Of a stretch of DNA of 64,000 nucleotides, positions 31,573 to 53,470 are shown piece by piece. The notes beneath the pieces are model-generated. The model saw only the letters and a program-made list of their open reading frames with translations. It was not told the DNA's origin and did not search any database. The translations under genes were made by a program, and so were the position numbers. Source of the DNA: Albimonas marina (lineage in GTDB: Bacteria > Pseudomonadota > Alphaproteobacteria > Rhodobacterales > Rhodobacteraceae). Location: assembly GCF_029223255.1 (NCBI RefSeq), contig NZ_JARHUC010000012.1, positions 1 through 64,000 of the forward strand, written 5' to 3'. Every line of letters starts with the position of its first letter. Within the stretch, counting starts at the first letter, position 1.

Positions 31573-31650
31573 GAGCGTTTCTCTCCCGTTCGGCGTCGTG
31601 TCGCGCCGGTCTCGCTTGCGGCCTCCGGCGCGTGCGCCGGGAGCCGGATC

Positions 31651-33809: not shown

Positions 33810-33820
33810 GGTCGGCTCCG

Positions 33821-35209: not shown

Positions 35210-35271
35210 GGGTCGGCGGCTCCTGTCTTCGCAGCCACAATGGGGCGAGTCGGACCACAAGCGCAAGTCAA

Positions 35272-35282
35272 TTGTTTGACCT
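35272..35282. promoter_or_regulatory. Possible GntR operator between modules E and F
   Basis: TTGTTTGACCT resembles TGGTNNNACCA (9 of 11). It lies in an AT-rich gap between the divergent phosphotransferase gene (minus) and the acetyl-CoA hydrolase gene (plus), and may control both. The likely partner is the GntR encoded at 22218-23000. Confidence 0.5.
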
Positions 35283-35361
35283 TTAGCTTGGGCTGCCATT
35301 AAACCATTCGGAGGCCACCCCTCCGCCCGCCGACTCGGGCGTCGTCCGACAGGGAGATCCC

Positions 35362-36654: not shown

Positions 36655-36670
36655 GCCCCCGTCCAGCGGA

Positions 36671-36710
36671 AGAAAACCCCGGCGTCGCGCCTCTGACGGT
36701 CGACGCCGGG
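36671..36710 (-). terminator. Rho-independent terminator of module G
   Basis: On the minus strand a 10-bp perfect stem (CCCGGCGTCG 36701-36710 with CGACGCCGGG 36678-36687 read on the plus strand in mirror order) is followed by TTTTCTT (36671-36677). It ends the acyl-CoA dehydrogenase transcript. The convergent acetyl-CoA hydrolase gene ends just before it on the other strand, but that side has no T-run. Confidence 0.75.
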
Positions 36711-36789
36711 AAGCCGGCGCGGCAGGCGCCGCGCCGCGGACGCCGCGACGGTCGGGAGAGGCTGCGCGGCGTCGAGGTTCGAGGCAGGC

Positions 36790-37953
36790 TCAGTAGGACT
36801 TGGGCAGCCCCAGCACCCGCTCGGCCAGGAACGACAGCACCAGCTGTTCCGAGACCGGGGCGAGGCGGGTGACCAGCACCTCGCGCAGCAGGCGTTCCAC
36901 CACGTATTCCTTGGCATAGCCCATGCCGCCGTGGGTGAAGACCGCCTGCTGGCAGGCGGCGTGGCCGGCGCGCGCGCCCAGCAGCTTGGCCGCGTTCGCC
37001 TCGGCCCCGCAGGGGCGGCCGGCGTCGTAGAGCTCGGCCGCCTTCTCGGCCATCAGCATGGCCGCCTCCAGGTTCGCCCAGCACTCCGCCAGCGGATGCT
37101 GGATGCCCTGGTTCTTGCCGATGGGCCGGCCGAACACCACCCGGTCGCGGGCGTATTTCGCGGCGCGCGCCAGCGCGTCCTGGCCGATGGCGATGGCCTC
37201 CACCGCGATCAGCACCCGCTCGGGGTTCAGGCTGTCGAGCAGGTAGTGGAAGCCGCGCCCGACCTCGCCGATCACGTGGTGGTCGGGGATGAAATAGTCG
37301 TCGTAGTAGACGAGGTTGGAATCCACCGCCGCGCGCCCGTGCTTGGGGATCTTCTTCACCTCGGCCCGGGTCCGGTCGAGGTCGGTGTAGAACACCGTGA
37401 TCCCGTCCGTGGGCTTGCGGCAGTCCTCCTTGGGCGTCGTGCGGGTCAGCAGCAGCACCTTGTTGGCCACCTGCGCGGTCGAGGTCCAGATCTTGCGCCC
37501 CGTCACCGACCAGCCGCCGTCGACCTTCTTCGCGAAGGTCTTGATCGAGGTGGTGTCGAGGCCCGCGTCCGGCTCGGTCACCCCGAAGCAGACCTGATCC
37601 TCGCCCGAGACCAGGCGGGGGGTCCATTCCGCCTTCTGCTCGGGCGTGCCGTGGACCACCAGCGGGTGCGGGCCGAACATGTTGATGTGGATCGAGGAGG
37701 CGGCCGCCATGCCGCCGCCGTGGCGGGCGACCTCGTGCATCACCGCGGCCGCGGCCTGCACGCCCAGGCCCGCGCCGCCGTATTCCTCGGGCATGGTCAC
37801 GCCCAGCCAGCCGCCCTCGGCCATGGCGCGGTGAAACTCGTGCGGAAACTCGCCGGCGTCGTCCTTGGCGTTCCAGTAGTCGTCGCCGAACCGTGCGCAG
37901 ACCGCGGCGACGCCGTCGCGCAGGGCCTGGAGGTCGTCCTGGGAGTCGAGCAT
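36790..37953 (-). CDS. Acyl-CoA dehydrogenase, module G
   Basis: A 387-residue FAD flavoenzyme introducing a double bond into an acyl-CoA. FAD/acyl blocks: FGVTEPDAGLDTTSIKT (about 123-139) and RKIWTSTAQVANKVLL. C-terminal region: HGGMGYAKEYVVERLLREV. A catalytic base in the usual C-terminal position (E before or after GT) is not obvious, as in some short-branched or aryl types. It follows the AtuA-like genes after a 70-bp gap with its own operator-like site, and a terminator closes the operon. Confidence 0.87.
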   Translation of the reverse strand: MLDSQDDLQALRDGVAAVCARFGDDYWNAKDDAGEFPHEFHRAMAEGGWLGVTMPEEYGGAGLGVQAAAAVMHEVARHGGGMAAASSIHINMFGPHPLVVHGTPEQKAEWTPRLVSGEDQVCFGVTEPDAGLDTTSIKTFAKKVDGGWSVTGRKIWTSTAQVANKVLLLTRTTPKEDCRKPTDGITVFYTDLDRTRAEVKKIPKHGRAAVDSNLVYYDDYFIPDHHVIGEVGRGFHYLLDSLNPERVLIAVEAIAIGQDALARAAKYARDRVVFGRPIGKNQGIQHPLAECWANLEAAMLMAEKAAELYDAGRPCGAEANAAKLLGARAGHAACQQAVFTHGGMGYAKEYVVERLLREVLVTRLAPVSEQLVLSFLAERVLGLPKSY

Positions 37954-38023
37954 GGATCGGGTCCTTTCCTGGGTCGCGAAGCGCGGCGGCCTCAGGGGAA
38001 GATGCCGGCGCGCCGCGTTTTTG

Positions 38024-38398
38024 TCAAATGGTTAGACCTTTAATCTTCGCCGTCTGGTCCCCGCCGTCGGCCGGGATCTCGATCTCGAGCGAAAGCAGCA
38101 GGAAGCTGAACGACTTGCCGTGCGCGTCGAGGTTCAGCGAGGCGTTCACGCCCCCCGCCAGCGCACGCTGGAAGACGAAGTTCAGCCCGTGCAGGTCCGG
38201 CAGCTCGTAGCGGCGCGCCTCGCCCCGGAAGACCTCGGGGAAGGCTTCGCGGACCCGCTCGGCGGTCAGCTGCTCGCGGATCGCGGGATACCACCGCGGC
38301 TCCAGCGCCCAGACCGAGACGTTGAGCGCGTCGCCCTTGTCGCCCGCGCGGGCGGAGGCGACGGCGCGCAGCGGAACCGTGCGCGTCGCGGCGGTCAT
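38024..38398 (-). CDS. AtuA C-terminal-domain-like small subunit
   Basis: A 124-residue protein corresponding to the C-terminal (ferredoxin-fold-like) domain of AtuA-type proteins. Recognisable blocks: RAVASARAGDKGDALNVSVW at the start and ALAGGVNASLNLDAHGKSFSF near the end. It is a separate gene here, overlapping the large part by ATGA (38395-38398). Its last codons overlap the operator-like site at 38029-38039. Confidence 0.8.
   Translation of the reverse strand: MTAATRTVPLRAVASARAGDKGDALNVSVWALEPRWYPAIREQLTAERVREAFPEVFRGEARRYELPDLHGLNFVFQRALAGGVNASLNLDAHGKSFSFLLLSLEIEIPADGGDQTAKIKGLTI
38029..38039. promoter_or_regulatory. Possible GntR operator before the acyl-CoA dehydrogenase
   Basis: TGGTTAGACCT matches TGGTNNNACCA at 10 of 11 positions, one of the two best matches. 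It lies at the end of the AtuA small-subunit gene, 76 bp upstream of the dehydrogenase gene, and could allow separate control of that gene within the operon. Confidence 0.55.
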
Positions 38399-39720
38399 GG
38401 CGCGATCCAGTTCACGCGGGTGGGGACCTGGGCGCGGTCGATGTAGATCGCGCGGGTGAAGACGCTTTCGGTGATGCGCCCGCGGAAGCCGCCGCCGCCG
38501 GCGGGGCCCGCCATCCACAGGCCCTCGATCTCCTCCAGCAGGCGCTCGGCCCAGGCGCGGTCGTGGCTGCGCAGGGCGCCGCGCAGCCGCACGTCCTGCG
38601 AGCCCTGCTCGGCCCGGCCGCCGTCGAGATGCAGCGAGGCGACGCCGATCAGCTCCAGCCGCAGCGGGCCGTTGAAGCCGAAGCGCTCGACCATGCGCCG
38701 GCGCACGATCTCGCGCGCCAGCTCCCCGCGGTCCTGCGCGCCGGGGCCGGCCCAGGAGATCTCGCCCTCGGCCAGGTATCCGCCGTCGAAGGCGACCAGC
38801 GCCTTGAGCGTCTGCGGCCGGGCCCGCCCGCCGGCGCCCGAGACGCGGACCCGGTCGGGGCCGACGGACTCGATCCGGGTGGTCGAGAAATCCGCGGTCA
38901 CGTCGGGGGTAAGGTAGGCGGCGGGGTCGTGGACCTCGTAGAGCATCTGCTCCTTCACCGTCAGCGGCGAGACCAGCCCGCCGGTCCCCGCCAGCTTGCC
39001 GATCACCGCCGAGCCGTCGGGCGAGATCTCGGCGATCGGATAGCCAAGGTCGTCGATCCCCGGCACCTCCTTGAAGCCCGGATCCGCGAAGTAGCCGCCC
39101 GTCACCTGGGTCGAGCATTCCAGCAGGTGGCCGGCGAGCGTCCCCGCCCCCAGCCGCGCCCAGTCGTCGGGCGCGACGCCGTTGGCGTGGACGAAGGGCG
39201 CGAGGAACAGCGACGGGTCCGCCGCCCGGCCCGCGATCACGATGTCCGCGCCGCCGTCGAGCGCCTCGACCAGCGGCTCGTGGCCGATATAGGCGTTGGC
39301 GGCGACGGGGGCGCCCAGGTCGCGCACCCGCTCACCGGTCTCGGGCAGCTCGGTTTCGGGACCGACCATCGGCAGGACGTCGTCGCCCTCGATCACCGCC
39401 ACCCGCAGCGTCAGCCCCAGCTCACGGGCGATGCGGGCGGTGGTCTCGCCGGCGGCGAGCGGGTCGGCGCCGCCCATGTTGGTCACGATCCGCACGCCCT
39501 GCGCCGCGCAGGCCGGCAGCACGGCGCGCATCCGCGCCTCCAGCTTCGGGCAGTGCCCCGGCCCCCGGCCCGAGCGCTTCGCGACATGACCCATGGCCAA
39601 CGTCCGTTCGGCCAGGGATTCGAAGCAGAGGAAATCGAGCTCCCCCCGCTCGGCCAGGGCCAGCGCGGGAGCGACCCGGTCGGGCGCCCCGCCCGAACCG
39701 CATCCGATCCGCAGGGTCAA
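38395..39720 (-). CDS. AtuA-family (DUF1446) protein, large part
   Basis: A 441-residue DUF1446/AtuA-type protein. The start is TTG at 39720, overlapping the stop of the VOC gene (TTGA); MTLRIGCGSGG then begins the domain. Blocks seen: FLCFESLAERTLAMG, TNMGGADPLAAGETTARIA, IAGRAADPSLFLAPFV and GHLLECSTQVTGGYFADPG. AtuA acts with other Atu proteins in acyclic terpene (citronellol/geraniol) breakdown in Pseudomonas, but the exact reaction is not settled. Here it would act on a product of the module G substrate. Confidence 0.82.
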   Translation of the reverse strand: MTLRIGCGSGGAPDRVAPALALAERGELDFLCFESLAERTLAMGHVAKRSGRGPGHCPKLEARMRAVLPACAAQGVRIVTNMGGADPLAAGETTARIARELGLTLRVAVIEGDDVLPMVGPETELPETGERVRDLGAPVAANAYIGHEPLVEALDGGADIVIAGRAADPSLFLAPFVHANGVAPDDWARLGAGTLAGHLLECSTQVTGGYFADPGFKEVPGIDDLGYPIAEISPDGSAVIGKLAGTGGLVSPLTVKEQMLYEVHDPAAYLTPDVTADFSTTRIESVGPDRVRVSGAGGRARPQTLKALVAFDGGYLAEGEISWAGPGAQDRGELAREIVRRRMVERFGFNGPLRLELIGVASLHLDGGRAEQGSQDVRLRGALRSHDRAWAERLLEEIEGLWMAGPAGGGGFRGRITESVFTRAIYIDRAQVPTRVNWIAP

Positions 39721-40232
39721 CGCGGCGCCCTCCCCAGCCCGGCGGGCAAGGTGTAGTCCGGGTCCGGCCGCACGAAGTCGGCGGGGCGGCGCACCACCTC
39801 GATCGCCATCTTCAGCGGGCCTTCGCCGTCGAGATAGGCGAACTGCGCCCCTGCCCAGGTCCCCTCCATCATCGGGGGAAGGCCGCGGGCCTCGGCCTGG
39901 GCGATCAGGGCGTCGTAGGCGCCCTCGCCCGCGTCGACGAGCACGTGGTGGATGCCCTCGCCGCGACGGTCGAGGAACTCGCGGTAGATGCTGGGGCCGT
40001 TCAGGGGCTGGATCACCTCCCACATCACGCCGTCGGGCGTCCAGGCGAGCGCCAGCTTCATGGAATAGGGGATCTCCCGGCCCCGGATGCGCATGCCGGT
40101 CAGCCGGGGGACCCAGACGTACCAGGGGCCGATGCCGGCGCGCTCCCAGTACTCGGCGATGGTCGCGTCCAGGTCCTCGACCACCACGCAGGTCTGCAGG
40201 ACGGAGCGGATCCAGGGGGCGGGGTCGGTCAT
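39717..40232 (-). CDS. VOC (glyoxalase/epimerase-like) protein
   Basis: A 171-residue vicinal-oxygen-chelate protein with two beta-alpha-beta modules. Metal-type ligands may be H at LQTCVVV-equivalent (here Q), E in MWEVIQP, H in GIHHVLVD and E in MAIEVV, similar to the methylmalonyl-CoA epimerase subfamily (IHHVL and MEVVxP-like blocks). It could racemise an acyl-CoA or act as a lyase or dioxygenase. It lies between the TRAP permease gene (10 bp) and the AtuA-like gene (overlap). Confidence 0.75.
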   Translation of the reverse strand: MTDPAPWIRSVLQTCVVVEDLDATIAEYWERAGIGPWYVWVPRLTGMRIRGREIPYSMKLALAWTPDGVMWEVIQPLNGPSIYREFLDRRGEGIHHVLVDAGEGAYDALIAQAEARGLPPMMEGTWAGAQFAYLDGEGPLKMAIEVVRRPADFVRPDPDYTLPAGLGRAPR

Positions 40233-40242
40233 CGCGTCCTCC

Positions 40243-41553
40243 TCAGCGCTGCATCAGGGCGGGCAGCCACAGGATGATGTCGGGAAAGACCACCAGCAGC
40301 GTCACCACGATCAGGTCGGCCAGCAGGAACCACAGGATCCCGCGGAAGATGCCGGCGACCGAGACGAGGTCGCCCACCACCGACTTGATGACGAAGACGT
40401 TGAGCCCGATGGGCGGCGTGATCATCCCGATCTCGAGGAACTTCGCCAGCACGATGCCGAACCACAGCAGGTCGTAGCCCGCCCCCGTCAGCACCGGCAG
40501 CAGCACCGGCAGGGTCAGCAGCATCGCCCCGATCGGCTCGAGGAACATGCCCAGCACCAGGTAGACCAGCGCGATCCCCACCAGCAGCAGGGTGGGATCG
40601 GCGCCCAGCGCGTCGATCAGCGCGGCGAGGTCCCGGCCCGCGCCGCTGATCGCCATGAACCGGGTCAGCATGTTGGCGCCGATGGCGATCACGAACAACG
40701 AGGCGGTGGTCTGCAGCGTCTCCATCAGGCTGTCATGGAAGCCCCGCCAGCAGAGCGAGCGCTTGATCAGCGCGATCAGCACCGCCATGCCGGCCCCGGC
40801 GCCGCCGGCCTCGGTCGGGGTGAAGACGCCGAAGAACAGGCCCCCCAGCACGCCGGCCATCAGCACCAGGACGGGCCAGGTCTCGACCAGCGCGCCCCAG
40901 CGCTCGGCGGCGGCGGGGTGCGCGTGCACCGGGGGCGCGAGCGACGGGGTCAGCCTGGCGCGGATCACCACGGTCAGCACGTAGCCCAGCGCCGTCAGCA
41001 GCCCCGCGCCGACGCCGCCCATGAACAGCGCGCCCACCGGCACCTGGGCGATGATGCCGTAGAGGATCAGCAGGATCGAGGGCGGGATCAGCGCGCCGAT
41101 GGTGCCGGCCGCGGCCACCGTGCCGGTGGCGAACTCGGGGTTGTAGCCGTTGCGCGTCATCTCGGGCACGGCGATCCGCCCCATCGCCGCCGCGCAGGCG
41201 ACGGAGGAGCCGGTGACCGCCGCGAAGCCCGAGGCGCCGAAGATCGAGGCGACCGCGATCCCCCCCGGCAGGCGCGACAGCCACAGCCGGGCCGCCTCGA
41301 AAAGGCCCTTGGTCAGGCCCGCGTGGTAGCACACGAACCCCATCAGCAGGAACATCGGCACCGAGCTCAGCTGCCAGGTCGCGGTGAACGTCCAGGGCAC
41401 GATGCCCATCGCGCCCCAGGCGGCGCGCGGCCCGACCATCGCCCAGATGCCGCAGAAGCTGACCCCGATCAGCGCCGCCCCGATGGGAATGCGCAGGGCG
41501 ATCAGGGCCAGCAGGATGGCGACGCCGGCGTATCCGATCTCGACGTTGCTCAC
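40243..41553 (-). CDS. TRAP transporter large permease (DctM-like), module G
   Basis: A 436-residue membrane protein, about 12 transmembrane segments. SSVPMFLLMGFVCYHAG, GSSVACAAAMGRIAVPEM, GTIGALIPPSILLILYG and FLEIGMITPPIGLNVFVI are shared nearly unchanged with the module A permease at 4338-5645, so the two transport systems are paralogues. It lies 31 bp after dctQ. Confidence 0.93.
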   Translation of the reverse strand: MSNVEIGYAGVAILLALIALRIPIGAALIGVSFCGIWAMVGPRAAWGAMGIVPWTFTATWQLSSVPMFLLMGFVCYHAGLTKGLFEAARLWLSRLPGGIAVASIFGASGFAAVTGSSVACAAAMGRIAVPEMTRNGYNPEFATGTVAAAGTIGALIPPSILLILYGIIAQVPVGALFMGGVGAGLLTALGYVLTVVIRARLTPSLAPPVHAHPAAAERWGALVETWPVLVLMAGVLGGLFFGVFTPTEAGGAGAGMAVLIALIKRSLCWRGFHDSLMETLQTTASLFVIAIGANMLTRFMAISGAGRDLAALIDALGADPTLLLVGIALVYLVLGMFLEPIGAMLLTLPVLLPVLTGAGYDLLWFGIVLAKFLEIGMITPPIGLNVFVIKSVVGDLVSVAGIFRGILWFLLADLIVVTLLVVFPDIILWLPALMQR

Positions 41554-41584
41554 GGGCGGGGCTCCGGTCCGGTTCGGGCGCGCA

Positions 41585-42151
41585 TCAGAAGACCCGCGCC
41601 TCGGGGTCCTGCGCGGGCCCGCGCAGCAGGGCCAGCGCGGCCTTGGCCAGCAGCGCCGCCGTCATCAGCCCGGCGCCCAGCGGCAGCAGGTAGCGGGCGG
41701 GCCAGGTCAGCAGCTTGACGCCGAACTCGATCTCGAAGGCGCCGATCTTCAGGGCGCGGCCGGCCTCGATCCACGACTGCCAGGTCAGCGCGGCGAAGAC
41801 CGCGGCGCAGAACAGCAGCGAGACGATGTGCAGGATTCGCTGTACGCGCGCAGGGAAGCGCGTGGTCAGCACCTCGACCCCGATGTGGCCGTTGCGCCGC
41901 TCGGCGAAGGCCAGCGGCAGGAAGGCGACCAGCACCATGTAGTAGTTCGAGACGATGGTGATCGTGCCCGGCAGCGGCGCGCGGAACAGGTATTTCGAGA
42001 TCACGTCGACCGAGATGTGGACCATCATCAGCACCGCCGCCGCCGCCGCGATCCAGGTCGCGCCCTGCACGACCCAGCCCAGCAGCCGCACGGCGGCGGG
42101 CGCAGGCGGCGCGCCGGCCGTCGGCCGGTCGACCTCGGGGGGCAGGCTCAT
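41585..42151 (-). CDS. TRAP transporter small permease (DctQ-like), module G
   Basis: A 188-residue protein with four membrane helices (about 30-50, 62-82, 108-128 and 152-172) after a proline-rich N-terminus. The motif LPLAFAERRNGHIGVEVL matches that of the module A protein. A stem-loop (42189-42221) lies between it and the binding-protein gene upstream. Confidence 0.9.
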   Translation of the reverse strand: MSLPPEVDRPTAGAPPAPAAVRLLGWVVQGATWIAAAAAVLMMVHISVDVISKYLFRAPLPGTITIVSNYYMVLVAFLPLAFAERRNGHIGVEVLTTRFPARVQRILHIVSLLFCAAVFAALTWQSWIEAGRALKIGAFEIEFGVKLLTWPARYLLPLGAGLMTAALLAKAALALLRGPAQDPEARVF

Positions 42152-42188
42152 CGGCAGGGGTCCTTCGAGCGGGAGGGGAGGCGAAGCC

Positions 42189-42221
42189 GCGCGCCCGGCC
42201 TGCGCCGGAGAGCGGGCGCGC
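42189..42221 (-). promoter_or_regulatory. Stem-loop between dctP and dctQ, module G
   Basis: GCGCGCCCG (42189-42197) pairs with CGGGCGCGC (42213-42221) over a 15-base loop, 33 bp after the dctP stop on the minus strand. No T-run. It matches the placement of the stem-loops in the other binding-protein/permease gaps. Confidence 0.5.
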
Positions 42222-42253
42222 CGCCCGTCCCCGACGCCGCCGGAGCGGACCGG

Positions 42254-43417
42254 TCAGTTCATGCCGTAGGAGGCGCGGTCGATCTTCGCGTAGATCTCGG
42301 CCTTCAGCAGGTCGCGGAAGCCCTCCAGGTCGGAGGGATCGACCTCGGCGACCTTGTCCTTCCACTTCTCGATCAGGCCGCGCATCGTCTCCATCTTCGC
42401 GGCGACGTTCTCGACGCCGTAGAGCTCTCCGAACTGCGTCTCGATGGTCTTCATGTCATCGGCCAGGAAGGCCTGCGTCGCCTCGGTGAAGCCCGCCTCG
42501 TCCGCGGTGACGATCGTGACCCCGGCCTCGGCCAACGTCTTCTCCGCCTTCACGCCCTGGCGGTAATATTCGACGGCCGTCGCCGCGGTCATCAGCGCGC
42601 CCGCGTCGAGCAGGACCGAGCGCTGGTCGGCGTCGAGCTCCCGCCAAAGATCGAGGTTCACGTCGAGCGAGGCCGCGCCCGCGAACACGCCGCCGGGCGC
42701 GTTCTTGACGATGTGGCTGGTGACGTCGGTGAGCTGGAAGTTGATCGCGTCCGGCAGGCCGACCATCGTGCACTGGACGACGTTCTGGGCCAGGGCCTCG
42801 TACATCTCGGACCCGGGGATGGCGACCTTGATCGCGCCGAAATGCTCCGCCCAGCGCCCGAAGACCGAGGCGCCCGAGCGCAGCGACAGCCCCTTGAGAT
42901 CGGCGGGAGACGTGATCGGCCGGTTGCAGACGAGGGAGTATTCGGTGCTGGCGCCGCCGCCGAGGAACACCTGGTTCTGCGCGAGGTACTCGGCCTGGCA
43001 GTCGGGGCAGTTCAGCAGCACGTATTCCGTCATCGCCGCGACCATCGCCAGCCCCGGCGCGTCGACGCCCTTCTGGACCAGCAGGGTCATGTCGGCGGCC
43101 ATGTTGGTCTCGGAATACTCGGCCGCGAAATAGGGCGTCAGCACGTAGCCCATGTCGGCGATGCCGTCGCGGATGCCCGGCGACATCTCGGCCAGCGTCA
43201 GCAGGCCCAGGCTCTGCACGTCGGCGCGCAGGTCGCTGTTGGCCTCGAGGAACTTCGCCACCTCGTGGTGGCCGTAGGGCGGCACGGCGGAGTCGGGAAA
43301 GCCCGAGGCCACGGTCAGCGTGCGCTCGGCGCCGACCGCGCCGGCGGAGGCCGCGAGCAGGACGGCCAGCGCCGCGGGCGCGCCGCGCCTGTGCATCTTC
43401 GCAAGGGTCATCATCAT
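42254..43417 (-). CDS. TRAP transporter substrate-binding protein (DctP-like), module G
   Basis: A 387-residue periplasmic protein with a signal peptide of about 30 residues (GAVGA-ERT). The cysteine set C137, C140 (NCPDC) and C164 matches the module A protein at 6271-7437, so the two are paralogues with a shared, unusual cysteine arrangement. The start is taken at the first of three ATG codons (43417), which follow a GGGAG site; the later two are alternatives. It heads the module G operon that ends at 36671. Confidence 0.9.
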   Translation of the reverse strand: MMMTLAKMHRRGAPAALAVLLAASAGAVGAERTLTVASGFPDSAVPPYGHHEVAKFLEANSDLRADVQSLGLLTLAEMSPGIRDGIADMGYVLTPYFAAEYSETNMAADMTLLVQKGVDAPGLAMVAAMTEYVLLNCPDCQAEYLAQNQVFLGGGASTEYSLVCNRPITSPADLKGLSLRSGASVFGRWAEHFGAIKVAIPGSEMYEALAQNVVQCTMVGLPDAINFQLTDVTSHIVKNAPGGVFAGAASLDVNLDLWRELDADQRSVLLDAGALMTAATAVEYYRQGVKAEKTLAEAGVTIVTADEAGFTEATQAFLADDMKTIETQFGELYGVENVAAKMETMRGLIEKWKDKVAEVDPSDLEGFRDLLKAEIYAKIDRASYGMN

Positions 43418-43463
43418 CTCTCCCTGTGGCGGGACCCATAGGTCCATTCTTCATTTTATTTAT

Positions 43464-43727: not shown

Positions 43728-45173
43728 ATGGACTTCGGCATCACGGCCGTGGGCGCCTACGCGCCGCGGCTACGCCTTTCGCGCGCCGCCATCGCCGCGG
43801 CGCACCGCTGGATGGCGCCGGCGCTGGCGTCGAGCGCGAAGGGCGAGCGGGCCTTCTGCAGCTGGGACGAAGACGCGATAACCATGGCTGTCGAGGCCGC
43901 GCGCGACTGCGTGCCGCCCGAAGGGCGCGCGGCGGTGAGTTCCCTGATCCTTGCGTCGACCACGCTGCCCTACGCGGACATGTCGAACGCCTCCGTCGTA
44001 GCCGGCGCGCTCGACCTTCGCGAGAGCGCGCGCACGGCCGAGGCGACGGGGTCTCAGCGGGCGGCGACCTCGGCCCTGGCGCAGGCGATCAAGGCGCGCG
44101 CCGAGGGCGCCCTTCTGGTGGCGACCGAGCGGCCGACCGCCAGGCCCGCCAGCATCCAGGAGATGCAGCAGGGCGCCGGCGCCGCTGCCTTGCAGCTCGG
44201 CACGGGCGACCTGATCGCGAAAGTCCTCGGCGTCGCCTCGGTCAACGCGGCCTTCGCCGACCACGTGCGCGCGGCCGGGGCGACCGCCGACTACGCCTGG
44301 GAGGAGCGGTGGATCCGCGACGAGGGCTACGCGAAGATCATCCCGCGCGCCATTTCCGCGGCGCTGATCGAAGCCGGGATCGCAGCGGGCGAGCTGGGGC
44401 GGTTCGTGATGCCCTCGCCGATCCGCGGCGCGGCGGCCTCGGTCGCGCGGACGGTCGGCTTTCGGGGCGAGGTGGCCGACGATCTCGCGGCAGGGTGCGG
44501 ACTGACCGGCGCCGCGCATCCGTTCCTGATGCTCGCGAAGGTTCTGGAGACGGCGGAGGCCGGGGAGAAGATCCTGCTGGTCGGGTTCGGCCAAGGCGCG
44601 GACGCCATCGTGCTGGAGGCGACCGGCCGCCGCCCGGCGGGCCGCGGCGTGACGGGCGCGCTCGCCGACCGGGTTCCGACCGAGGACTACCTGCGGATGC
44701 TGTCCTTCTACGGGCGCATCGAGCTTGAGTGGGGGATGCGGGCCGAGGCGGCGGACAAGGCCGCGCTGACCGCCGCCTGGCGCGAGGCCGAGCAGTTGTC
44801 GGCCTTCAAGGCCGGACGCTGCCCCGACTGCGGAACGATCCAGTTCCCCCAGCTCGCCTACTGCGTGACGCCCGGCTGCGGCGCCCATGCCGAGCGGTTC
44901 GAACAGGTCTCGCTCGCCGACGCGCCCGCGAAGGTGCTGACCTATACCGCCGACTGGCTCAGCTACCACCCCGCCCCGCCGCTGGTGGTGGGCTTCGTGC
45001 AGTTCGAGAACGGCGCGCGCCTGCTGATGGAGACGGTGGACGCCGACCCCGCCGCGGTCGACGTGGGCCTGCCGCTGCGCATGGTGTTCCGCCTGAAGAA
45101 GATCGACGCGAGGAGCGGCTTCCGCCGCTATTTCTGGAAAGCCACGCCCGACATCGCCGCGGCGACGGGCTGA
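43728..45173 (+). CDS. HMG-CoA-synthase-like protein fused to a DUF35 OB/zinc-ribbon domain
   Basis: A 481-residue two-domain protein. Residues 1 to about 340 have the HMG-CoA synthase/thiolase-superfamily fold. From about 350 there is a DUF35 zinc ribbon (Cys365, Cys368, Cys379, Cys384) and an OB-fold that binds acyl-CoA. In the position where HMG-CoA synthases keep the nucleophilic Cys, the sequence reads TGSQRAATSA (107-116) with no Cys, so classical catalysis is unlikely. Combined with the SCP2-type thiolase gene 10 bp downstream, it resembles archaeal HMGS/thiolase/DUF35 complexes in fused form. It starts the H operon. Confidence 0.8.
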   Translation: MDFGITAVGAYAPRLRLSRAAIAAAHRWMAPALASSAKGERAFCSWDEDAITMAVEAARDCVPPEGRAAVSSLILASTTLPYADMSNASVVAGALDLRESARTAEATGSQRAATSALAQAIKARAEGALLVATERPTARPASIQEMQQGAGAAALQLGTGDLIAKVLGVASVNAAFADHVRAAGATADYAWEERWIRDEGYAKIIPRAISAALIEAGIAAGELGRFVMPSPIRGAAASVARTVGFRGEVADDLAAGCGLTGAAHPFLMLAKVLETAEAGEKILLVGFGQGADAIVLEATGRRPAGRGVTGALADRVPTEDYLRMLSFYGRIELEWGMRAEAADKAALTAAWREAEQLSAFKAGRCPDCGTIQFPQLAYCVTPGCGAHAERFEQVSLADAPAKVLTYTADWLSYHPAPPLVVGFVQFENGARLLMETVDADPAAVDVGLPLRMVFRLKKIDARSGFRRYFWKATPDIAAATG

Positions 45174-45183
45174 GGAGAGAACC

Positions 45184-46386
45184 ATGGCCACCGGCATCAA
45201 GGACAAGGTCGCCATCATCGGCATGGGCTGCTCGCGCTTCGGCGAACGCTGGGACGCGAGCGAGGAGGATCTGCTGGCCGAAGCCTTCGACGAGGCGCTG
45301 GCCGACGCGGGGATCGAACGGTCGCAGATCGGGGCCGCCTGGTTCGGCTCGGGCGTGGACGGGGTGAACGTCGGAAATTCCGCGATCCCCGCATCGACGG
45401 CGCTGCGGCTGGACGGCATCCCGGTCAGCCGGGTCGAGAACATGTGCGCCACCGGCACGGAGGCGCTTCGCGGGGCGGCCTACGCCGTCGCCTCGGGCGC
45501 GGTCGACATCGCGCTGGCGGTCGGGGCGGAGAAGCTGAAGGACACCGGCTACGGCGGCCTTCCCACCCCGTTCAAGGGCGCCTTCAACGACCTGTGGCTG
45601 CCGCTGGGCTCGGCTCCCGCGGGCTTCGCCCAGCTGGCGGCGGGGTATCGCACCAAGCACCAGGTCTCGAAGCAGGACCTGAAACGGGCCATCGCCCATG
45701 TCTCGTGGAAGAGCCACCAGAACGGCGTGCTCTCGCCCAAGGCGCACCTGCGCAAGGAGGTGTCGATGGACGCCATCCTGAACGCGCCGATGATCGCGGA
45801 GCCGCTGGGCCTGTACGACTGCTGCGGCGTCTCGGACGGGGCCGCGGCGGCCATCGTGACCACGCCCGAGATCGCGCGGGCAATGGGCCACGGCGACTTC
45901 GTGACCATCAAGGCGATCCAGCTCTCGATCAGCTCAGGCGTCGAATCCACGACCGACGCCTGGGACGGCAGCCACGTGCGCAACACCCGCAACGCCGCGA
46001 AGCGCGCCTATGCGGAGGCCGGGATCGAAGATCCCCGCCGGCAGCTCTCGCTGATGGAGGTGCACGACTGCTTCTCGATCACCGAGCTGGTGACGATGGA
46101 GGACCTGTTCGTCTCCGGCGAGGGCGAGGCGGTGCGCGACGTGCTCGACGGCTTCTACGACCGCGAGGGCGGCGGCGTGCCCTGCCAGGTGGACGGGGGC
46201 TTGAAATGCTTCGGCCATCCGATCGGCGCCTCGGGCCTGCGCATGGCCTACGAGAACTACACCCAGCTTCTGGGCCGGGCCGGGGCGCGGCAGATCCCGA
46301 ACGCCTCGCTGGGCCTGTCGCACAATCTCGGCGGCGTGCCCTATCTGGGCATCGCCGCGATCTCGATCCTGGGCCTGCATTCCTGA
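45184..46386 (+). CDS. SCP2-type thiolase/lipid-transfer-like acyl-CoA thiolase
   Basis: A 400-residue thiolase. The acylation cysteine is C88 in NMCATGTEAL. CFGHPIGASG near the end provides the second Cys and the His, and HDCFSITELV the third block. These enzymes split beta-ketoacyl-CoA or, in steroid pathways (Ltp2-like with a DUF35 partner), carry out retro-aldol cleavage. The fused DUF35 protein upstream would be its partner. A perfect 14-bp stem-loop (46435-46466) separates it from the next gene. Confidence 0.88.
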   Translation: MATGIKDKVAIIGMGCSRFGERWDASEEDLLAEAFDEALADAGIERSQIGAAWFGSGVDGVNVGNSAIPASTALRLDGIPVSRVENMCATGTEALRGAAYAVASGAVDIALAVGAEKLKDTGYGGLPTPFKGAFNDLWLPLGSAPAGFAQLAAGYRTKHQVSKQDLKRAIAHVSWKSHQNGVLSPKAHLRKEVSMDAILNAPMIAEPLGLYDCCGVSDGAAAAIVTTPEIARAMGHGDFVTIKAIQLSISSGVESTTDAWDGSHVRNTRNAAKRAYAEAGIEDPRRQLSLMEVHDCFSITELVTMEDLFVSGEGEAVRDVLDGFYDREGGGVPCQVDGGLKCFGHPIGASGLRMAYENYTQLLGRAGARQIPNASLGLSHNLGGVPYLGIAAISILGLHS

Positions 46387-46493: not shown

Positions 46494-47651
<1,158 letters not shown>

Positions 47652-47722: not shown

Positions 47723-48577
47723 ATGGATCTCGAAACCGTGCGCGCGCACCGCTTCGACCCGATCGAGCATGCCTACACGGCGAAGGACACGATGCTCTAC
47801 GCCCTGGGCATCGGCTACGGGTCGGACCCGCTGGACCCCGCCCAGCTCGCGTTCGTCTACGAGGAGGACCTGAAGGCCGTCCCCTCGATCTGCAACGTGC
47901 TGGCCCATCCGGGCTTCTGGGCGAAGGATCCGAAGTTCGGGATCTCCTGGATGAAGATCCTGCATGGCGAGCAGGAATACGAGATCCGCGCCCCGATCCC
48001 GCCCGAAGGGCGCGTGCGGGGCGAATACGAGATCCAGGCCGTCGAGGACCGGGGCGAGGGCAAGGGCGCACGGCTGCACCAGCTCAAGCGGCTCTTCGAC
48101 CAGGACGGGACGCTGCTGGCCACCGTCCGCTCGGTCATCGTGATGCGCGGCGACGGCGGCTGCGGGGGCTTCGGGGATCCCGTCCAGCCCCCGGGCGCGC
48201 TGCCCGACGCCACGCCGGACGAGGTGGTGGAGCTGCCGACCCTGCCGCAGCAGGCGCTGATCTATCGACTTTCGGGCGACTACAACCCCATCCACGCCGA
48301 TCCGAAGGCGGCGGAGGGGGGCGGGTTCGACGCGCCGATCCTGCATGGCCTGTGCACGCTGGGGCTCGCGACCCGCTCGCTCCTGCAGGCCTGTGCGCCG
48401 GGCCGGCCGGAGGCGCTGACCTCGATGTTCGTGCGCTTCTCGAGCCCGGTGTTCCCCGGCGAGACCATCGTCACCGAGATCTTCCGCGGCGCCGACGACG
48501 AGATCCGCTTCCGCTGCCGGGCGAAGGAGCGCGACGTGGTGGTTCTGGACCGGGGGCGCGCCCGGATCGCGTCATGA
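47723..48577 (+). CDS. MaoC-type 2-enoyl-CoA hydratase (hydratase-2 like)
   Basis: A 284-residue double hot-dog protein. The hydratase-2 motif is complete: LSGDYNPIHADPKAAEGGGF with D186 and H191 as catalytic residues. The N-terminal half is the non-catalytic hot-dog repeat, as in peroxisomal MFE-2. It adds water to trans-2-enoyl-CoA to give the (3R)-hydroxyacyl-CoA. It overlaps the crotonase gene by ATGA (48574-48577). Paired with the MFE-like SDRs at 52559 and 56364, it suggests an R-specific spiral. Confidence 0.9.
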   Translation: MDLETVRAHRFDPIEHAYTAKDTMLYALGIGYGSDPLDPAQLAFVYEEDLKAVPSICNVLAHPGFWAKDPKFGISWMKILHGEQEYEIRAPIPPEGRVRGEYEIQAVEDRGEGKGARLHQLKRLFDQDGTLLATVRSVIVMRGDGGCGGFGDPVQPPGALPDATPDEVVELPTLPQQALIYRLSGDYNPIHADPKAAEGGGFDAPILHGLCTLGLATRSLLQACAPGRPEALTSMFVRFSSPVFPGETIVTEIFRGADDEIRFRCRAKERDVVVLDRGRARIAS

Positions 48578-49386
48578 GCGGGCTCGGGCGGGAGGGGCCG
48601 GGCTTCGCGACCGCGCTCGACGCCGGCGTGCTGACCCTGACCCTGAACCGGCCGGAGGCGCGCAACCCGTTCGTGCCCGGGATGCCGGCGGCCCTGCGCG
48701 ACTTGTTGGAAGAGGCGCAGGCCGACCCGGGGGTGCGCTGCCTGATGGTGCGCGGGGCGGGCGACCACCTGTCGGCCGGGGGCGACGTCGCGAGCTTTGC
48801 GCGCAGCCTGGCCGAGTCGACCGACGCCGAGCGGCAGGCGGAGTTCCGCGGGCGCATGGGCGTGGCGAAGATGCTGGCGCTGGCGCTGGCCGCCTTCGAC
48901 CGTCCGGTCGTGGTGCGCCACAGGGGGGCCGTCGCGGGAGCCGGCCTGATGTTCCCTCTCGCGGCCGATCTCGTGGTGGCCGACGAAACGGCGCGCTTGA
49001 TCTTCGCCTATCGGCGACTGGCGCTGTCGCCCGACGGAGGCGTCTCCTGGCTGCTGGCCCGCGCGGTGGGCGCACGCCAGGCGCGACGGCTGATGCTGAC
49101 CGCAGCCGTGGTCGAGGCAGCCGAGGCGCAGCGGCTCGGCCTGATCGACCTCCTGGTCCCGGCCGAGGAGCTGGACGCGGCGGCGGCGCGGGCCGCCGCC
49201 GACTTCGCCGCCGCGCCGCAGGGGTCGCTGTCGCGCATCAAGCGGCTGGCGAACGCGGCGCCGGGACAGGACTACGCCGCGCATCTCTCCGCCGAAGGCG
49301 AGGCGATCGTCGAGGGCGTGGTCGACCCCGACTTCGCCGAAGGCGTCGCCGCCTTCCTGGAGAAGCGCCCTCCCCGCTTCGCCTGA
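48574..49386 (+). CDS. Enoyl-CoA hydratase/isomerase (crotonase) family protein
   Basis: A 270-residue crotonase. Oxyanion-hole blocks: DHLSAGGDVASFA (64-76) and HRGAVAGAGLMFPLAADLV (116-134). In the active site the second acid is Asp (SPDGG, D154) and the first Glu of classical hydratases is not obvious. The SPDGG form is typical of delta3-delta2 enoyl-CoA isomerases such as PaaG-type, so isomerisation is at least as likely as hydration. It is the last gene of the H operon. Confidence 0.87.
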   Translation: MSGLGREGPGFATALDAGVLTLTLNRPEARNPFVPGMPAALRDLLEEAQADPGVRCLMVRGAGDHLSAGGDVASFARSLAESTDAERQAEFRGRMGVAKMLALALAAFDRPVVVRHRGAVAGAGLMFPLAADLVVADETARLIFAYRRLALSPDGGVSWLLARAVGARQARRLMLTAAVVEAAEAQRLGLIDLLVPAEELDAAAARAAADFAAAPQGSLSRIKRLANAAPGQDYAAHLSAEGEAIVEGVVDPDFAEGVAAFLEKRPPRFA

Positions 49387-49454: not shown

Positions 49455-50795
49455 TCAGACCGCGTAGGCGAGGAACAGCGACAGGACCGGGAACACCAGC
49501 AGCAGCGTCAGCACCACCAGGTCCATGACGAAGAACGGCGTGACGCCCGCGAAGATCCGCCCCACGGGGACCTTCGGATCGGTCACCGAATGGATCACGA
49601 ACACGTTCAGTCCGACCGGCGGCGTCACCAGACCCATCTCCAGCAGCTTCACCACGATCACGCCGAACCAGATCAGGTCCATGCCGTGGCTCTCGACCAG
49701 CGGCAGGGTGAACGGCAGCGTCAGCAGCAGGATGCCCAGCGGATCGAGGAACATCCCCAGCAGGATGTAGATCGCCACGATCCCCACGAACAGCAGGACG
49801 ATGCCCGGCTCGGACGCCTGCACGACCGTCACCATCGCGTTCGCCACGCCGGTCAGCGAGACGAAGCTGACGAAGGTCTTGGCCGCGGCGGCGATAAGGA
49901 AGATCGCGGCGGTCTGCACCGCCGTCTCCTTCAGCGCCTCGCGCAGGCCATCGAGCTTGATCCGGCCGGTGACGACCGCGATCGCGCAGGCGGCGACGAA
50001 GCTGACCGCCGCCGCTTCCGTGGCGGTGAAGATCCCGCCGTAGATGCCGCCGATGATGATCGCGAAGATCAGCAGCGCCGGCCAGGCGGCGATCAGCGCG
50101 CGCAGGCGCTCGGCCAGCGAGTAGCGCTGATCGGAGGAGGGCGCATCCTGGGGGCGCAGGCTCGTCCAGATGCCGACCACGACCCAGTAGCCGACCATCG
50201 ACAGCAGCCCCGGCACCACCCCGGCCATGAACAGGCGGGAGATCGACTGCTCGGCGAAGATCCCGTAGAGGATGAACAGGATCGAGGGCGGGATCAGCGC
50301 CCCCAGGGTGCCGCCGGCCGCCACGCAGCCCGTCGACAACCGGTCCGAGTAGCCGAAGCGGTTCATCTCCGACACCGCCACGCGCCCCATGGTGGCCGCG
50401 CAGGCGATCGAGGAGCCCGAGATCGCCGCGAACCCCCCGCACCCTAGGATCGAGGCCATGGCGAGCCCGCCGGGAACCCGCGTCAGCCAGGCTCTCGCGG
50501 CGAAATAGATGTCGGAGGTGATGCCCGACCGGTAGCAGACATGCCCCAGCGCCACGAACATCGGGATCGCCGAGAGATCGTAGGAATAGAACAGCTCGAA
50601 GATGGTGGACGCCGCAAGCGTCAGGGTCGGGACCAGCGCCCGGTCGAGCGCGGGGGCCCCGCTCTGCGGAAAGGCGAAGTAGACGAAGATCGAGACCAGC
50701 GCCACGACTCCGAGCGCGAAGGCGATGGGGGTGCGCAGGATGATGAGGATCAGCGCAGCGCCCATGCCGAGCGCGCCGAGAACTGCCGGGTCCAT
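49455..50795 (-). CDS. TRAP transporter large permease (DctM-like), module I
   Basis: A 446-residue membrane protein with about 12 transmembrane segments. Blocks: SAIPMFVALGHVCYRSG, GSSIACAATMGRVAVSEM, GTLGALIPPSILFILYG and VKLLEMGLVTPPVGLNVFVI. Its N-terminal region contains an extra hydrophilic loop around residues 45-60 compared with the module A and G permeases. It ends the operon that starts with the SDR gene at 53470. Confidence 0.92.
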   Translation of the reverse strand: MDPAVLGALGMGAALILIILRTPIAFALGVVALVSIFVYFAFPQSGAPALDRALVPTLTLAASTIFELFYSYDLSAIPMFVALGHVCYRSGITSDIYFAARAWLTRVPGGLAMASILGCGGFAAISGSSIACAATMGRVAVSEMNRFGYSDRLSTGCVAAGGTLGALIPPSILFILYGIFAEQSISRLFMAGVVPGLLSMVGYWVVVGIWTSLRPQDAPSSDQRYSLAERLRALIAAWPALLIFAIIIGGIYGGIFTATEAAAVSFVAACAIAVVTGRIKLDGLREALKETAVQTAAIFLIAAAAKTFVSFVSLTGVANAMVTVVQASEPGIVLLFVGIVAIYILLGMFLDPLGILLLTLPFTLPLVESHGMDLIWFGVIVVKLLEMGLVTPPVGLNVFVIHSVTDPKVPVGRIFAGVTPFFVMDLVVLTLLLVFPVLSLFLAYAV

Positions 50796-50796
50796 G

Positions 50797-51330
50797 TCAG
50801 GAAGGCTCCGAGGCGTGAGGGTCGTCCGAGGGCGGCGCGCCCTCGACCAGATCGCGCGCCAGCAGGTGCACGAGCCGCAGCGTCATGCTGATCAGGCCCA
50901 GCGACAGCGCCGCGTAGGGCGGCCACTCCGGCAGGCGCAGCAGGCCGTAGAGCGTGCGGCCGGAGCCGATGTGCTCGGCCGTCTCGGCCGCGATCCACAG
51001 GCATGTCGGGATCATGAAGACCAGCGCCGCGATCAGGGCGAGCACCTCGCAGACGCGGCGCGTGCCGGGCCCCATCAGGTTGAACAGGATGTCGACGGCG
51101 ATATGGGCGCCCGTCGCGGTGGCGTGGCCCAGCGCGCAGGCGATGGCGGCGACCATCAGCATCTGCACCATGATCACGCCGTCGGGGATGGCGATTGCGG
51201 GCAGGCTTCGCGCCGCGATCTCCCAGCATACAAGGGCGGCGATGGCGGCCAACGCGGCCATCGAGAGGCCGAGCAGCACCCGCTCGATCCAGGTCAACGC
51301 CGCGTCGGCGGCAGTCAGAAAACCGGACAT
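50797..51330 (-). CDS. TRAP transporter small permease (DctQ-like), module I
   Basis: A 177-residue membrane protein with four helices (about 15-40, 50-70, 90-112 and 130-150). IACALGHATATGAHIAVDILF is the position of the DctQ signature. It lies 1 bp upstream of dctM and follows the stem-loop-containing dctP gap. Confidence 0.88.
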   Translation of the reverse strand: MSGFLTAADAALTWIERVLLGLSMAALAAIAALVCWEIAARSLPAIAIPDGVIMVQMLMVAAIACALGHATATGAHIAVDILFNLMGPGTRRVCEVLALIAALVFMIPTCLWIAAETAEHIGSGRTLYGLLRLPEWPPYAALSLGLISMTLRLVHLLARDLVEGAPPSDDPHASEPS

Positions 51331-51393
51331 GACGGCTCCCGAACAGAAAGGGGCGGCTGAGACCGTCGCGGCGAGGGCCGCGGCGGCCGAGGG

Positions 51394-51415
51394 GGCCGGG
51401 CGCGCACGCCCGGCC
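51394..51415 (-). promoter_or_regulatory. Stem-loop between dctP and dctQ, module I
   Basis: GGCCGGGCG (51394-51402) pairs with CGCCCGGCC (51407-51415) over a 4-base loop, starting 15 bp after the dctP stop on the minus strand. No T-run. It is the tightest of the four such stem-loops. Confidence 0.6.
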
Positions 51416-51429
51416 GGGAGAGCGGCGCC

Positions 51430-52476
51430 TCAGCTGCCCTGTTCGGCCAGGTGCTTGGCCAGCAGGTCGGTGTAGGTCTTCACCAGCACGGCGCCGTCCA
51501 GGCCCATCTTCTGCGCATCGGCGATCCAGGCCTCGATGATCGGCTTGCTGGCCTCGTCGAGCTTGGCGAGATCCGCCTCGGAGAACATGTGCACGGGCAT
51601 CTTCTTGCCCTCGAAGCCCTCGGGCAGCTGGGCAATGACCTCCTGGTTGCGCGCGCGCATCGCCTCGGCGGTCTTCCGGTTGTACTCGGCGCCCAGTTCG
51701 ATGATCATCTCCTGATCCTTGGGATCGAGGCCGTCGAACGACCGGCGGTTCATGAACATGCCGTTCGACTGGATGGTCGCGCCGTTGATGGCCGTGAAGC
51801 TGTCGGCGACCTCGTAGAGCTTGTAGCTCTCGACGATGTAGCCATAGGCCTGGCTGCAGTCGATCATGCCGGTGTCCAGCGCCTGGTAGGCCTTGGGCAG
51901 CGAGATCACCACCGCCGTCGCACCGAATTCGCCGTAGATCTCGCCGTAGTCCGAGGTGGCGCGGACCTTCTTGCCCGAGAAATCCTCGACGGATGTCAAC
52001 GCCCCGCCCTTGCACACCATCTGGATCGGGCCCACCGAGTAGTTCATCAGGTAGACGATGCCCAGCCGGTCCATCTCCTCCTGGAGCGCGGGGTGGGTGG
52101 TGGTCAGCTCGTAGAGCGCGGCGGCGCCGGCGACCTCGTTGGGGTTGCGCACCGGCAGGTCGCCGACCCCGTAGGCGAAGAGCTGGTCGCGCGGAGAATA
52201 GCCGGCGGTCACGGTGGCGATGTCGGCCACGCCGTTGCGCAGGCCCTCCAGCATCTTGGTCGCCGGCAGCAGGGCCTGAGCCCAGTGCCGCTCGATCTTG
52301 ATGCGGCCTTCCGAGCGGGTCTCGATCTCGTCGAGGTAGGCGGTGACGTAGTCCGCGCGGATGCCGCGGTTGCCGCCGTAGTCGGCATAGCGCAGCACGG
52401 TCTGGGCTGCGGCGGGCAGAGCGAGCCCGACCGCCAGCGCGGCGGTGGCAAGTACGGTTCCGAGTGCAAGGCGCAT
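51430..52476 (-). CDS. TRAP transporter substrate-binding protein (DctP-like), module I
   Basis: A 348-residue periplasmic protein with a signal peptide of about 24 residues (PAAAQ-TVL). Blocks: HWAQALLPATKMLEGLRNGVADIA and the substrate-Arg region GKKVRATSDYG. It lacks the NCPDC cysteines of the module A and G proteins and probably binds something different. The SDR gene at 52559 lies 82 bp upstream on the same strand. Confidence 0.9.
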   Translation of the reverse strand: MRLALGTVLATAALAVGLALPAAAQTVLRYADYGGNRGIRADYVTAYLDEIETRSEGRIKIERHWAQALLPATKMLEGLRNGVADIATVTAGYSPRDQLFAYGVGDLPVRNPNEVAGAAALYELTTTHPALQEEMDRLGIVYLMNYSVGPIQMVCKGGALTSVEDFSGKKVRATSDYGEIYGEFGATAVVISLPKAYQALDTGMIDCSQAYGYIVESYKLYEVADSFTAINGATIQSNGMFMNRRSFDGLDPKDQEMIIELGAEYNRKTAEAMRARNQEVIAQLPEGFEGKKMPVHMFSEADLAKLDEASKPIIEAWIADAQKMGLDGAVLVKTYTDLLAKHLAEQGS

Positions 52477-52558: not shown

Positions 52559-53470
52559 TCAGACCGGATCCCAGGTGAAGACGTCGCCCGAGCGGGCGAG
52601 CGGGTAGGCCGAGGCCTCCAGCGCAGGGATCGCCCGGTCGATCACGCTCTGCGGCGTCCAGCCTTCCGAGGCATGGACAGAACGGATCGGGCGCGGCTGC
52701 GAGAACAGGAACACCTCATTGGCGCGGGTCCCGAACACCTGCCCGTTCATCGACGCGGCGGCGTCCGAGAGCAGCGCCACCGGGAAGGCCGCGATCAGCT
52801 CGGGCCTGAGCTTCTTGAGCCCCTCGACCCGCGCCTTCTCCTCGGGCGTCTTGTCGGGGATCGTGCCCACGAGCCGGGTCCAGGCGAAGGGCGCGATGCA
52901 GTTCGAGCGGACGTTGAACCGCTCCATGTCCAGCGCGATGGACTTCGAAAGCCCCACCACCCCCAGCTTCGCGGCGGCGTAGTTCGCCTGGCCGAAGTTG
53001 CCGATCAGGCCGGAAGTGGAGGTCATGTGGACGAAGGCGCCGGACATCTGCTTGCGGAACACGTCCGCGGCGGCGCGCGAGACGTAGAAGTAGCCCTTCA
53101 GGTGCACGTCCACGACCGACTCGAAGTCCTCCGGCGTCATCTTGTGGAAGATGCGGTCGCGCAGGATTCCGGCGTTGTTGACCACGCCGTCCAACCGCCC
53201 GAAGGCGTCCAGCGCCTTGGCGACCATCGCCTGCGCATCGTCCCAGGACGAGATCGAGCCGCCGTCGGGCACCGCGTGGCCGCCGGCGGCCACGATCTCC
53301 TCGGCGACCGCGCGGGCGGGGCCGATCTCGCCGCCCTCGCCGGTCTCGTCGCCGCCCAGGTCGTTGACCACCACCGCCGCGCCCTGCCTGGCGGCCTCGA
53401 GCGCGATGCAGCGGCCCACGCCGCGGCCCGCGCCCGTCACGATCACGACTTTGTCTTTCAGCAGCGCCAT
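52559..53470 (-). CDS. Short-chain dehydrogenase, MFE-2-like 3-hydroxyacyl-CoA dehydrogenase
   Basis: A 303-residue SDR. Cofactor motif TGAGRGVG (12-19), NNAG (98-101), and the catalytic Y164-x3-K168 in NYAAAK. The long insert VNDLGGDETGEGGEIGPAR and the GILRDRIFHKMT block are characteristic of the dehydrogenase domain of peroxisomal multifunctional enzyme 2, which acts on (3R)-hydroxyacyl-CoA. It shares this signature with the SDR at 56364. It is upstream of the module I TRAP genes. Confidence 0.88.
   Translation of the reverse strand: MALLKDKVVIVTGAGRGVGRCIALEAARQGAAVVVNDLGGDETGEGGEIGPARAVAEEIVAAGGHAVPDGGSISSWDDAQAMVAKALDAFGRLDGVVNNAGILRDRIFHKMTPEDFESVVDVHLKGYFYVSRAAADVFRKQMSGAFVHMTSTSGLIGNFGQANYAAAKLGVVGLSKSIALDMERFNVRSNCIAPFAWTRLVGTIPDKTPEEKARVEGLKKLRPELIAAFPVALLSDAAASMNGQVFGTRANEVFLFSQPRPIRSVHASEGWTPQSVIDRAIPALEASAYPLARSGDVFTWDPV

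Follow-up and report, generated by a model that had tools for sequence, protein, structure and literature searches.

Several described complexes combine an HMG-CoA synthase (HMGS)-fold protein, a DUF35 protein and a thiolase. In the archaeal HMGS/thiolase/DUF35 complex (6ESQ), the HMGS is catalytic, with Cys114 and Glu82 as catalytic residues (PMC6392133). PhlABC, also known as PpATase (5M3K, 5MG5; CsATase, 9SKH), consists of the HMGS-fold PhlA, the DUF35 protein PhlB and the catalytic thiolase-fold PhlC; PhlA lacks both the catalytic Cys (Gly115) and the catalytic Glu (Cys83) (PMC6392133, PMC12955522), and the substrate contacts in PpATase come from PhlC residues only (PMC6392133). MucABC from Streptococcus macacae (9VBO) is a multi-component acyltransferase according to its PDB entry; in it, an HMGS-fold subunit forms a complex with a thiolase-fold chain and a protein of the PhlB family. 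In the steroid aldolases Sal/Shy and Ltp2/ChsH2, a thiolase-fold enzyme has a DUF35 partner that is fused to a MaoC hydratase domain (PMC12329534, PMC11321319). CtSal and TcLtp2 carry a YD[CH] motif with a catalytic Tyr, and in CtSal Gly replaces the nucleophilic Cys (PMC12329534).

An HMG-CoA synthase gene has also been noticed in a catabolic setting: the study of oestradiol degradation in Novosphingobium tardaugens left the gene EGO55_13555 unplaced, as a condensing enzyme made no sense in a degradative pathway, and its authors suggested another activity such as that of a thiolase (PMC7793797). Our literature search for DUF35 together with HMGS and thiolase returned the PpATase paper only, and for the fused family described below we found no paper beyond the N. 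tardaugens remark.

Here we analysed a 64,000-nucleotide stretch of the Albimonas marina genome (contig NZ_JARHUC010000012.1, positions 1 to 64,000; hereafter the window), which encodes a fused HMGS-like/DUF35 protein next to an SCP2-type thiolase. We propose, with a probability of roughly three in four, that the fused protein serves as the catalytically inactive HMGS-fold/DUF35 subunit of a heteromeric β-oxidation thiolase acting on 3-ketoacyl-CoA.

Results

The fused gene and its protein

The fused gene (43728..45173, plus strand) is an open reading frame with a coding GC3 signature and encodes 481 amino acids; a purine-rich ribosome-binding sequence precedes the start codon of both this gene and the thiolase gene. 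Residues 1-332 (43728..44723, plus strand) form an HMGS-like domain of the thiolase superfamily. The archaeal HMGS models match residues 2-297 with scores well under the curated cut-offs for a functional HMGS (NF003274, 117.6 versus 244 bits; TIGR00748, 68.3 versus 353 bits). The C-terminal part contains a zf-ChsH2 rubredoxin-like zinc ribbon (residues 356-387, 44793..44888, plus strand; Pfam, 29.2 bits versus a cut-off of 23.2) and an OB_ChsH2_C OB fold (residues 401-455, 44928..45092, plus strand; 32.2 versus 27.1 bits). Since both are above the Pfam gathering score and all four zinc ligands (Cys 365, 368, 379 and 384) are present, this part is of the DUF35/ChsH2 type, and the zinc ribbon is indeed intact, as an earlier note on this DNA had stated. 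Public annotations of the family's genes vary between HMG-CoA synthase, ketoacyl-ACP synthase III and OB-fold protein.

The DUF35 module is not uniform in the family, as 16 of 84 relatives retain only one of the four zinc Cys. This set is rich in Caulobacter (L005, L045, L046, L049, L051, L058, L062, L068-L071, L073, L079, L083, L088, L090); its members have, for example, CRETG...ISVAPN in the ribbon and retain the thiolase partner.

The synthase active site

The positions of the HMGS triad were assigned by profile alignment to the archaeal HMGS 6ESQ chain I. Cys114 of 6ESQ corresponds to Gln110 (44055..44057, plus strand), Glu82 to Thr78 (43959..43961, plus strand), and the His of the HQPN stretch to Pro229 (44412..44414, plus strand); the translated protein contains ARTAEATGSQRAATSALAQA at the old nucleophile stretch. 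The family alignment comprises 145 members of Pseudomonadota and Desulfobacterota. Its Cys column has Gln in 81, Leu in 35, Thr in 10 and Met in five sequences, plus others, and Cys in none. The Glu column has Thr in 131 and Ser in four members and never Glu, and the His column has Pro in 110 and His in one. As a positive control, a Cys-bearing HMGS-type protein (L162) found in the same search places its Cys in the Gln110 column. The absence of the nucleophilic Cys, which the earlier note had reported, is thus confirmed. Judged from this alignment, the entire triad is gone, not the Cys alone, and a large family shares this loss.

The earlier note had named a Cys elsewhere in the structural active site as evidence against its reading. 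Among the 145 relatives, the lost triad has no conserved substitute, be it Cys, Glu or His. Cys at column 109 was considered as a substitute nucleophile and rejected, as it is seen in only five of the 145, and the window protein has Ser there. The protein has the fold of HMGS, lacks the Glu/Cys/His that define a functional one, and is probably non-catalytic.

KSQ domains carry Gln in place of Cys, and the Gln of the window protein and of 81 of the 145 relatives raises the question of whether the HMGS-like domain is a KSQ-like decarboxylase that feeds an enolate to the thiolase. The remaining residues of this column (Leu, Thr, Met and others) show that Gln is dispensable. Decarboxylation is expected to need the catalytic His; its retention in a single relative argues against membership in the KSQ type, and we consider such a reaction extremely unlikely.

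The thiolase partner

The thiolase gene (45184..46386, plus strand; 400 amino acids) starts 10 bases past the stop codon of the fused gene. The protein belongs to the SCP2-type thiolases PRK06157, as it scores 643.2 bits against the curated cut-off of 403 (NF004810) and contains Cys88, the HDCF motif (His294-Asp-Cys296-Phe), Cys342, His345 and the GHP motif. The earlier observation that the neighbouring thiolase retains its catalytic Cys holds beyond the window: Cys88 is present in 177 of 177 aligned thiolases, and His294, Cys296 and His345 each in 176 of 176. Of 84 loci, 83 carry a same-subfamily thiolase gene downstream of the fused gene, in the same orientation and mostly immediately next to it. 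Family-wide, then, one member of the pair is without catalytic residues throughout, whereas the other has them throughout.

One locus (L161; G534 C17 27800-36500) has an unfused Cys-less HMGS-like gene with an open frame of 346 residues; a thiolase gene adjoins it, and a DUF35-like match lies close by. This arrangement is possibly the ancestral state of the fused gene.

Gene neighbourhood and fusions

The thiolase gene is directly followed by genes for an acyl-CoA dehydrogenase (46494..47651; Pfam), a MaoC/MFE-2-type hydratase 2 (47726..48577; Pfam MaoC_dehydratas and MFE-2_hydrat-2_N) and an enoyl-CoA hydratase/isomerase family protein (48574..49386; Pfam ECH_1), all on the plus strand. An MFE-2-type (3R)-hydroxyacyl-CoA dehydrogenase of the SDR family is encoded on the minus strand (52559..53470; best PDB match 2et6, E 2.9e-97, then HSD17B4), and an acyl-CoA ligase gene is found nearby at 53862. 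The SDR is likely to be the pathway partner of the thiolase pair. Searches of the relatives with named query proteins revealed a recurrent gene order, SDR-MaoC-[HMGS/DUF35]-thiolase-acyl-CoA dehydrogenase.

The SDR of the window is 43% identical to an SDR domain that is fused to the pseudo-HMGS in the locus L074. In 12 loci (L074, L081, L082, L086, L117-L123, L125), whose hosts are Desulfobacterota or are named as deltaproteobacteria, the open frame extends 330-460 residues beyond DUF35. Pfam scans of L074 (6001-8721) and L081 (1330-4050) identified the extension as SDR plus SCP2 domains, and L082 and L086 have SDR-like sequence in it; for the remaining eight, frame length was the only criterion. 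By its domain composition, the four-module HMGS-DUF35-SDR-SCP2 protein would resemble a thiolase partner merged with MFE-2. The SDR fusion connects the pair with the dehydrogenase reaction, whose product, 3-ketoacyl-CoA, is the substrate of a thiolase, and together, the neighbouring genes and the SDR/SCP2 fusions point to a β-oxidation thiolase.

The earlier note had offered a new activity of the pair, retro-aldol cleavage, as an alternative, and a retro-aldolase acting on β-hydroxyacyl-CoA would have parallels: Sal/Ltp2 share with the window pair the thiolase-fold class and a DUF35 partner in fusion with a further enzyme domain, and DUF35-bound aldolases are known (PMC12329534). Their aldolase-type residues, however, are different. 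The window thiolase has HDCF and Cys88, both invariant, rather than the Y-D-[HC] with catalytic Tyr of Sal/Ltp2 or the Gly of CtSal, and is thus not a member of the steroid aldolases; moreover, the DUF35 part of the aldolases is fused to a MaoC hydratase domain and not to an HMGS fold. An SDR of the hydroxyacyl-CoA dehydrogenase type is located near the pair, or fused to it, in many relatives, and the edc-type cluster described below has a separate lipid-transfer/ChsH2-like pair beside the window-type pair. The HDCF motif, the retained Cys88 and the link to the SDR in a context of thiolytic β-oxidation are the main argument for regarding retro-aldol cleavage as quite improbable.

Several other genes surround the operon. 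Two TRAP transporter sets flank it on the opposite strand (40243-43447 and 49455-52476), and the Tistrella copy (L166) likewise has a TRAP set near. An acetyl-CoA hydrolase/transferase-family protein (35362-36654) is 43% identical to the product of the gene directly after the thiolase in Diaphorobacter (L167), and similarly annotated hydrolase/transferase genes follow the pair on Paraburkholderia and Azoarcus plasmids. The region 29554-40023 (minus strand) contains hydantoinase-like, CoA-transferase III, phosphotransferase, acyl-CoA dehydrogenase and AtuA genes, which suggests that it is part of a wider acyl-CoA degradation island; its CoA-transferase III has a long N-terminal extension, perhaps a start-site artefact.

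Predicted fold and packing with the thiolase

The fused protein was modelled with AlphaFold from 50 sequences (mean pLDDT 92.6, pTM 0.93). The best fold match of the HMGS part was 6ESQ chain I (VIA-align Z 42.6, rmsd 2.1 Å over 327 residues), followed by PhlA (Z 40-41) and MucA (Z 39). Each of these is a subunit of a thiolase/DUF35 complex, which supports the view of the window pair as a condensed version of the archaeal assembly. The pair has the three modules in common with the latter; the archaeal complex differs in having a catalytic HMGS, separate subunits and a role in the mevalonate pathway.

As the two window genes lie in different frames, the packing was modelled on a relative (L084) that has both genes in one frame. 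The 40-residue gap was included with the stop codon read as Gly, and 13 further paired and 55 unpaired rows were supplied. This read-through HMGS-DUF35/thiolase chain reached a pLDDT of 88.5 and a pTM of 0.87, values obtained without PAE or a negative control, with a disordered linker (pLDDT about 31-47). If the halves of about 480 and 395 residues had been placed without confidence, a pTM near 0.5 would be expected, so the arrangement appears to be confidently predicted; it has to be considered that homologous solved complexes (6ESQ, 5M3K) were in the training of the network and that AlphaFold may recall them. The model thus supports, and does not prove, that the fused protein packs with the thiolase. 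The mirror-tree correlations of the pair (0.81-0.89) cannot serve as proof of contact, because co-inheritance alone predicts such values.

By sequence, the nearest solved relative of the fused protein is PhlA. Like PhlA, it has an HMGS fold in which Cys and Glu are replaced, a DUF35 part encoded along with it, and an adjacent thiolase that keeps its Cys. This likeness, including the loss of catalytic residues on both sides, could mean that the window complex forms C-C bonds as PhlABC does, in acyl transfer or biosynthesis. The thiolase speaks against it, being far closer to SCP2 thiolases (162-173 bits) than to PhlC (52 bits over 118 residues), and so do the surrounding genes of acyl-CoA degradation; we therefore regard C-C bond formation as highly improbable. 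The organization is different as well. In PhlABC, an antibiotic biosynthesis system, the PhlA-like and PhlB-like parts are separate subunits and the thiolase is of the PhlC type, whereas here the two parts are fused and accompany a PRK06157/SCP2-type thiolase in a catabolic setting. MucABC, whose HMGS-fold subunit has Glu at the Cys position in the alignment, likewise differs from the window pair in its separate subunits. It is biosynthetic rather than catabolic.

Selection and distribution

Twelve locus pairs with both genes gave dN/dS values of 0.045-0.196 for the fused protein, compared with 0.011-0.079 for its thiolase; in all 12, the fused protein had the higher value. In one more pair (L056/L061), dN/dS was 0.29 for the fused protein, with the full thiolase absent for comparison. 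The fused protein is under purifying selection that is weaker than that on the thiolase, a pattern that fits, and does not prove, a constrained but non-catalytic subunit. A pseudogene or a sequencing error was ruled out by the intact open reading frames, the coding signature and dN/dS.

The invariant residues outside the old triad (WDED 46-49, W191-E-x-R-W195, R338 and E340) are numerous and could serve a function beyond scaffolding, which counts against a pure scaffold. The HMGS-like domain might have gained another catalytic or ligand-gating activity through the strongly conserved, invariant motifs WDED, DH 178-179 and WEERWxRDEG, which would also be in line with the purifying selection. Nevertheless, DED, D178, R181 and R194 occur in the aligned archaeal HMGS too and are possibly structural, and the synthase part changes at a higher rate than the thiolase; we consider a gained activity unlikely.

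Matches to the fused protein were found in 11 of 398 sampled Pseudomonadota genomes, in 68 of 198 genomes of the phylum Desulfobacterota, to which the host of L086 belongs (up to eight per genome), and in 48 of 398 genomes of the family of Novosphingobium marinum. The gene is single-copy in the genome of A. marina, and only four of 61 near-relative genomes, its own included, have a full copy; hence, the distribution is patchy. Plasmid-borne copies are present in Tistrella, Sphingobium, Azoarcus and others.

Oestrogen-degradation clusters

In six loci of Sphingomonadaceae (L246-L251), the gene order is acyl-CoA dehydrogenase, SDR, [HMGS/DUF35], thiolase, two enoyl-CoA hydratases and a thiolase-like lipid-transfer protein; in four of the six, the stretch read also includes a large divergent gene and a P450. 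For L249, the large gene was identified by Pfam and NCBIfam as indolepyruvate ferredoxin oxidoreductase, and the same searches recognized a P450, an extradiol dioxygenase and a DUF35 protein of the ChsH2 type. The gene order of these loci matches the published edc order. Like the window, they have a fused Cys-less HMGS/DUF35 gene, with Leu or Thr at the Cys position, immediately preceding a same-family thiolase that has Cys and HDCF; they differ in that their fused genes belong to another branch, with profile scores of about 300 as against 700 bits.

By gene order, rather than by comparison of its sequence, EGO55_13555 would belong to the fused family, and on the same grounds, it would be expected to act as a subunit of thiolase EGO55_13550 rather than as a thiolase in its own right. 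The HMGS/DUF35-thiolase pairing may thus explain the unplaced gene of the oestrogen-degradation clusters.

Discussion

The fused protein is neither a functional HMGS nor a PhlABC component; it is a fused catabolic variation on known complexes. In the proposed pathway, an acyl-CoA would be oxidized by the acyl-CoA dehydrogenase and processed by MaoC/hydratase 2 and the MFE-2-type (3R)-hydroxyacyl-CoA dehydrogenase, and the thiolase pair would catalyze the last, thiolytic step. Its chemistry would be done by the SCP2-type thiolase, with Cys88 taking the acyl group and His345, Cys296 and His294 assisting. The HMGS-like and DUF35 parts would build the oligomer, as PhlA/PhlB do around PhlC and HMGS/DUF35 do in the archaeal complex, and would probably complete the CoA/acyl-CoA site of the thiolase. 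In the edc-type clusters, the substrate of the pair would be a steroid-derived acyl-CoA. The earlier suggestion of a non-catalytic synthase fold serving as a DUF35 scaffold stands in its first half, given the loss of the triad, and needs rewording in its second: the HMGS-like and DUF35 parts would together scaffold the thiolase.

More tentatively, the fused protein could be the hub of a β-oxidation assembly, in which the dead HMGS fold and DUF35 hold the thiolase, Desulfobacterota also fuse the MFE-2-type dehydrogenase and SCP2 to it, and bulky or branched acyl-CoAs are passed from dehydrogenase to thiolase. We regard this as possible rather than probable; if true, it would make the protein a bacterial counterpart of peroxisomal MFE-2/SCPx.

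The annotation as an HMG-CoA synthase-type protein is misleading, since it makes a catabolic operon seem to hold a biosynthetic condensing enzyme. If the proposed subunit role is correct, the neighbouring thiolase should not work without the fused protein. The fused protein and its SDR/SCP2-extended form in Desulfobacterota are natural single-chain material for studying DUF35 thiolase assembly and possible substrate channelling.
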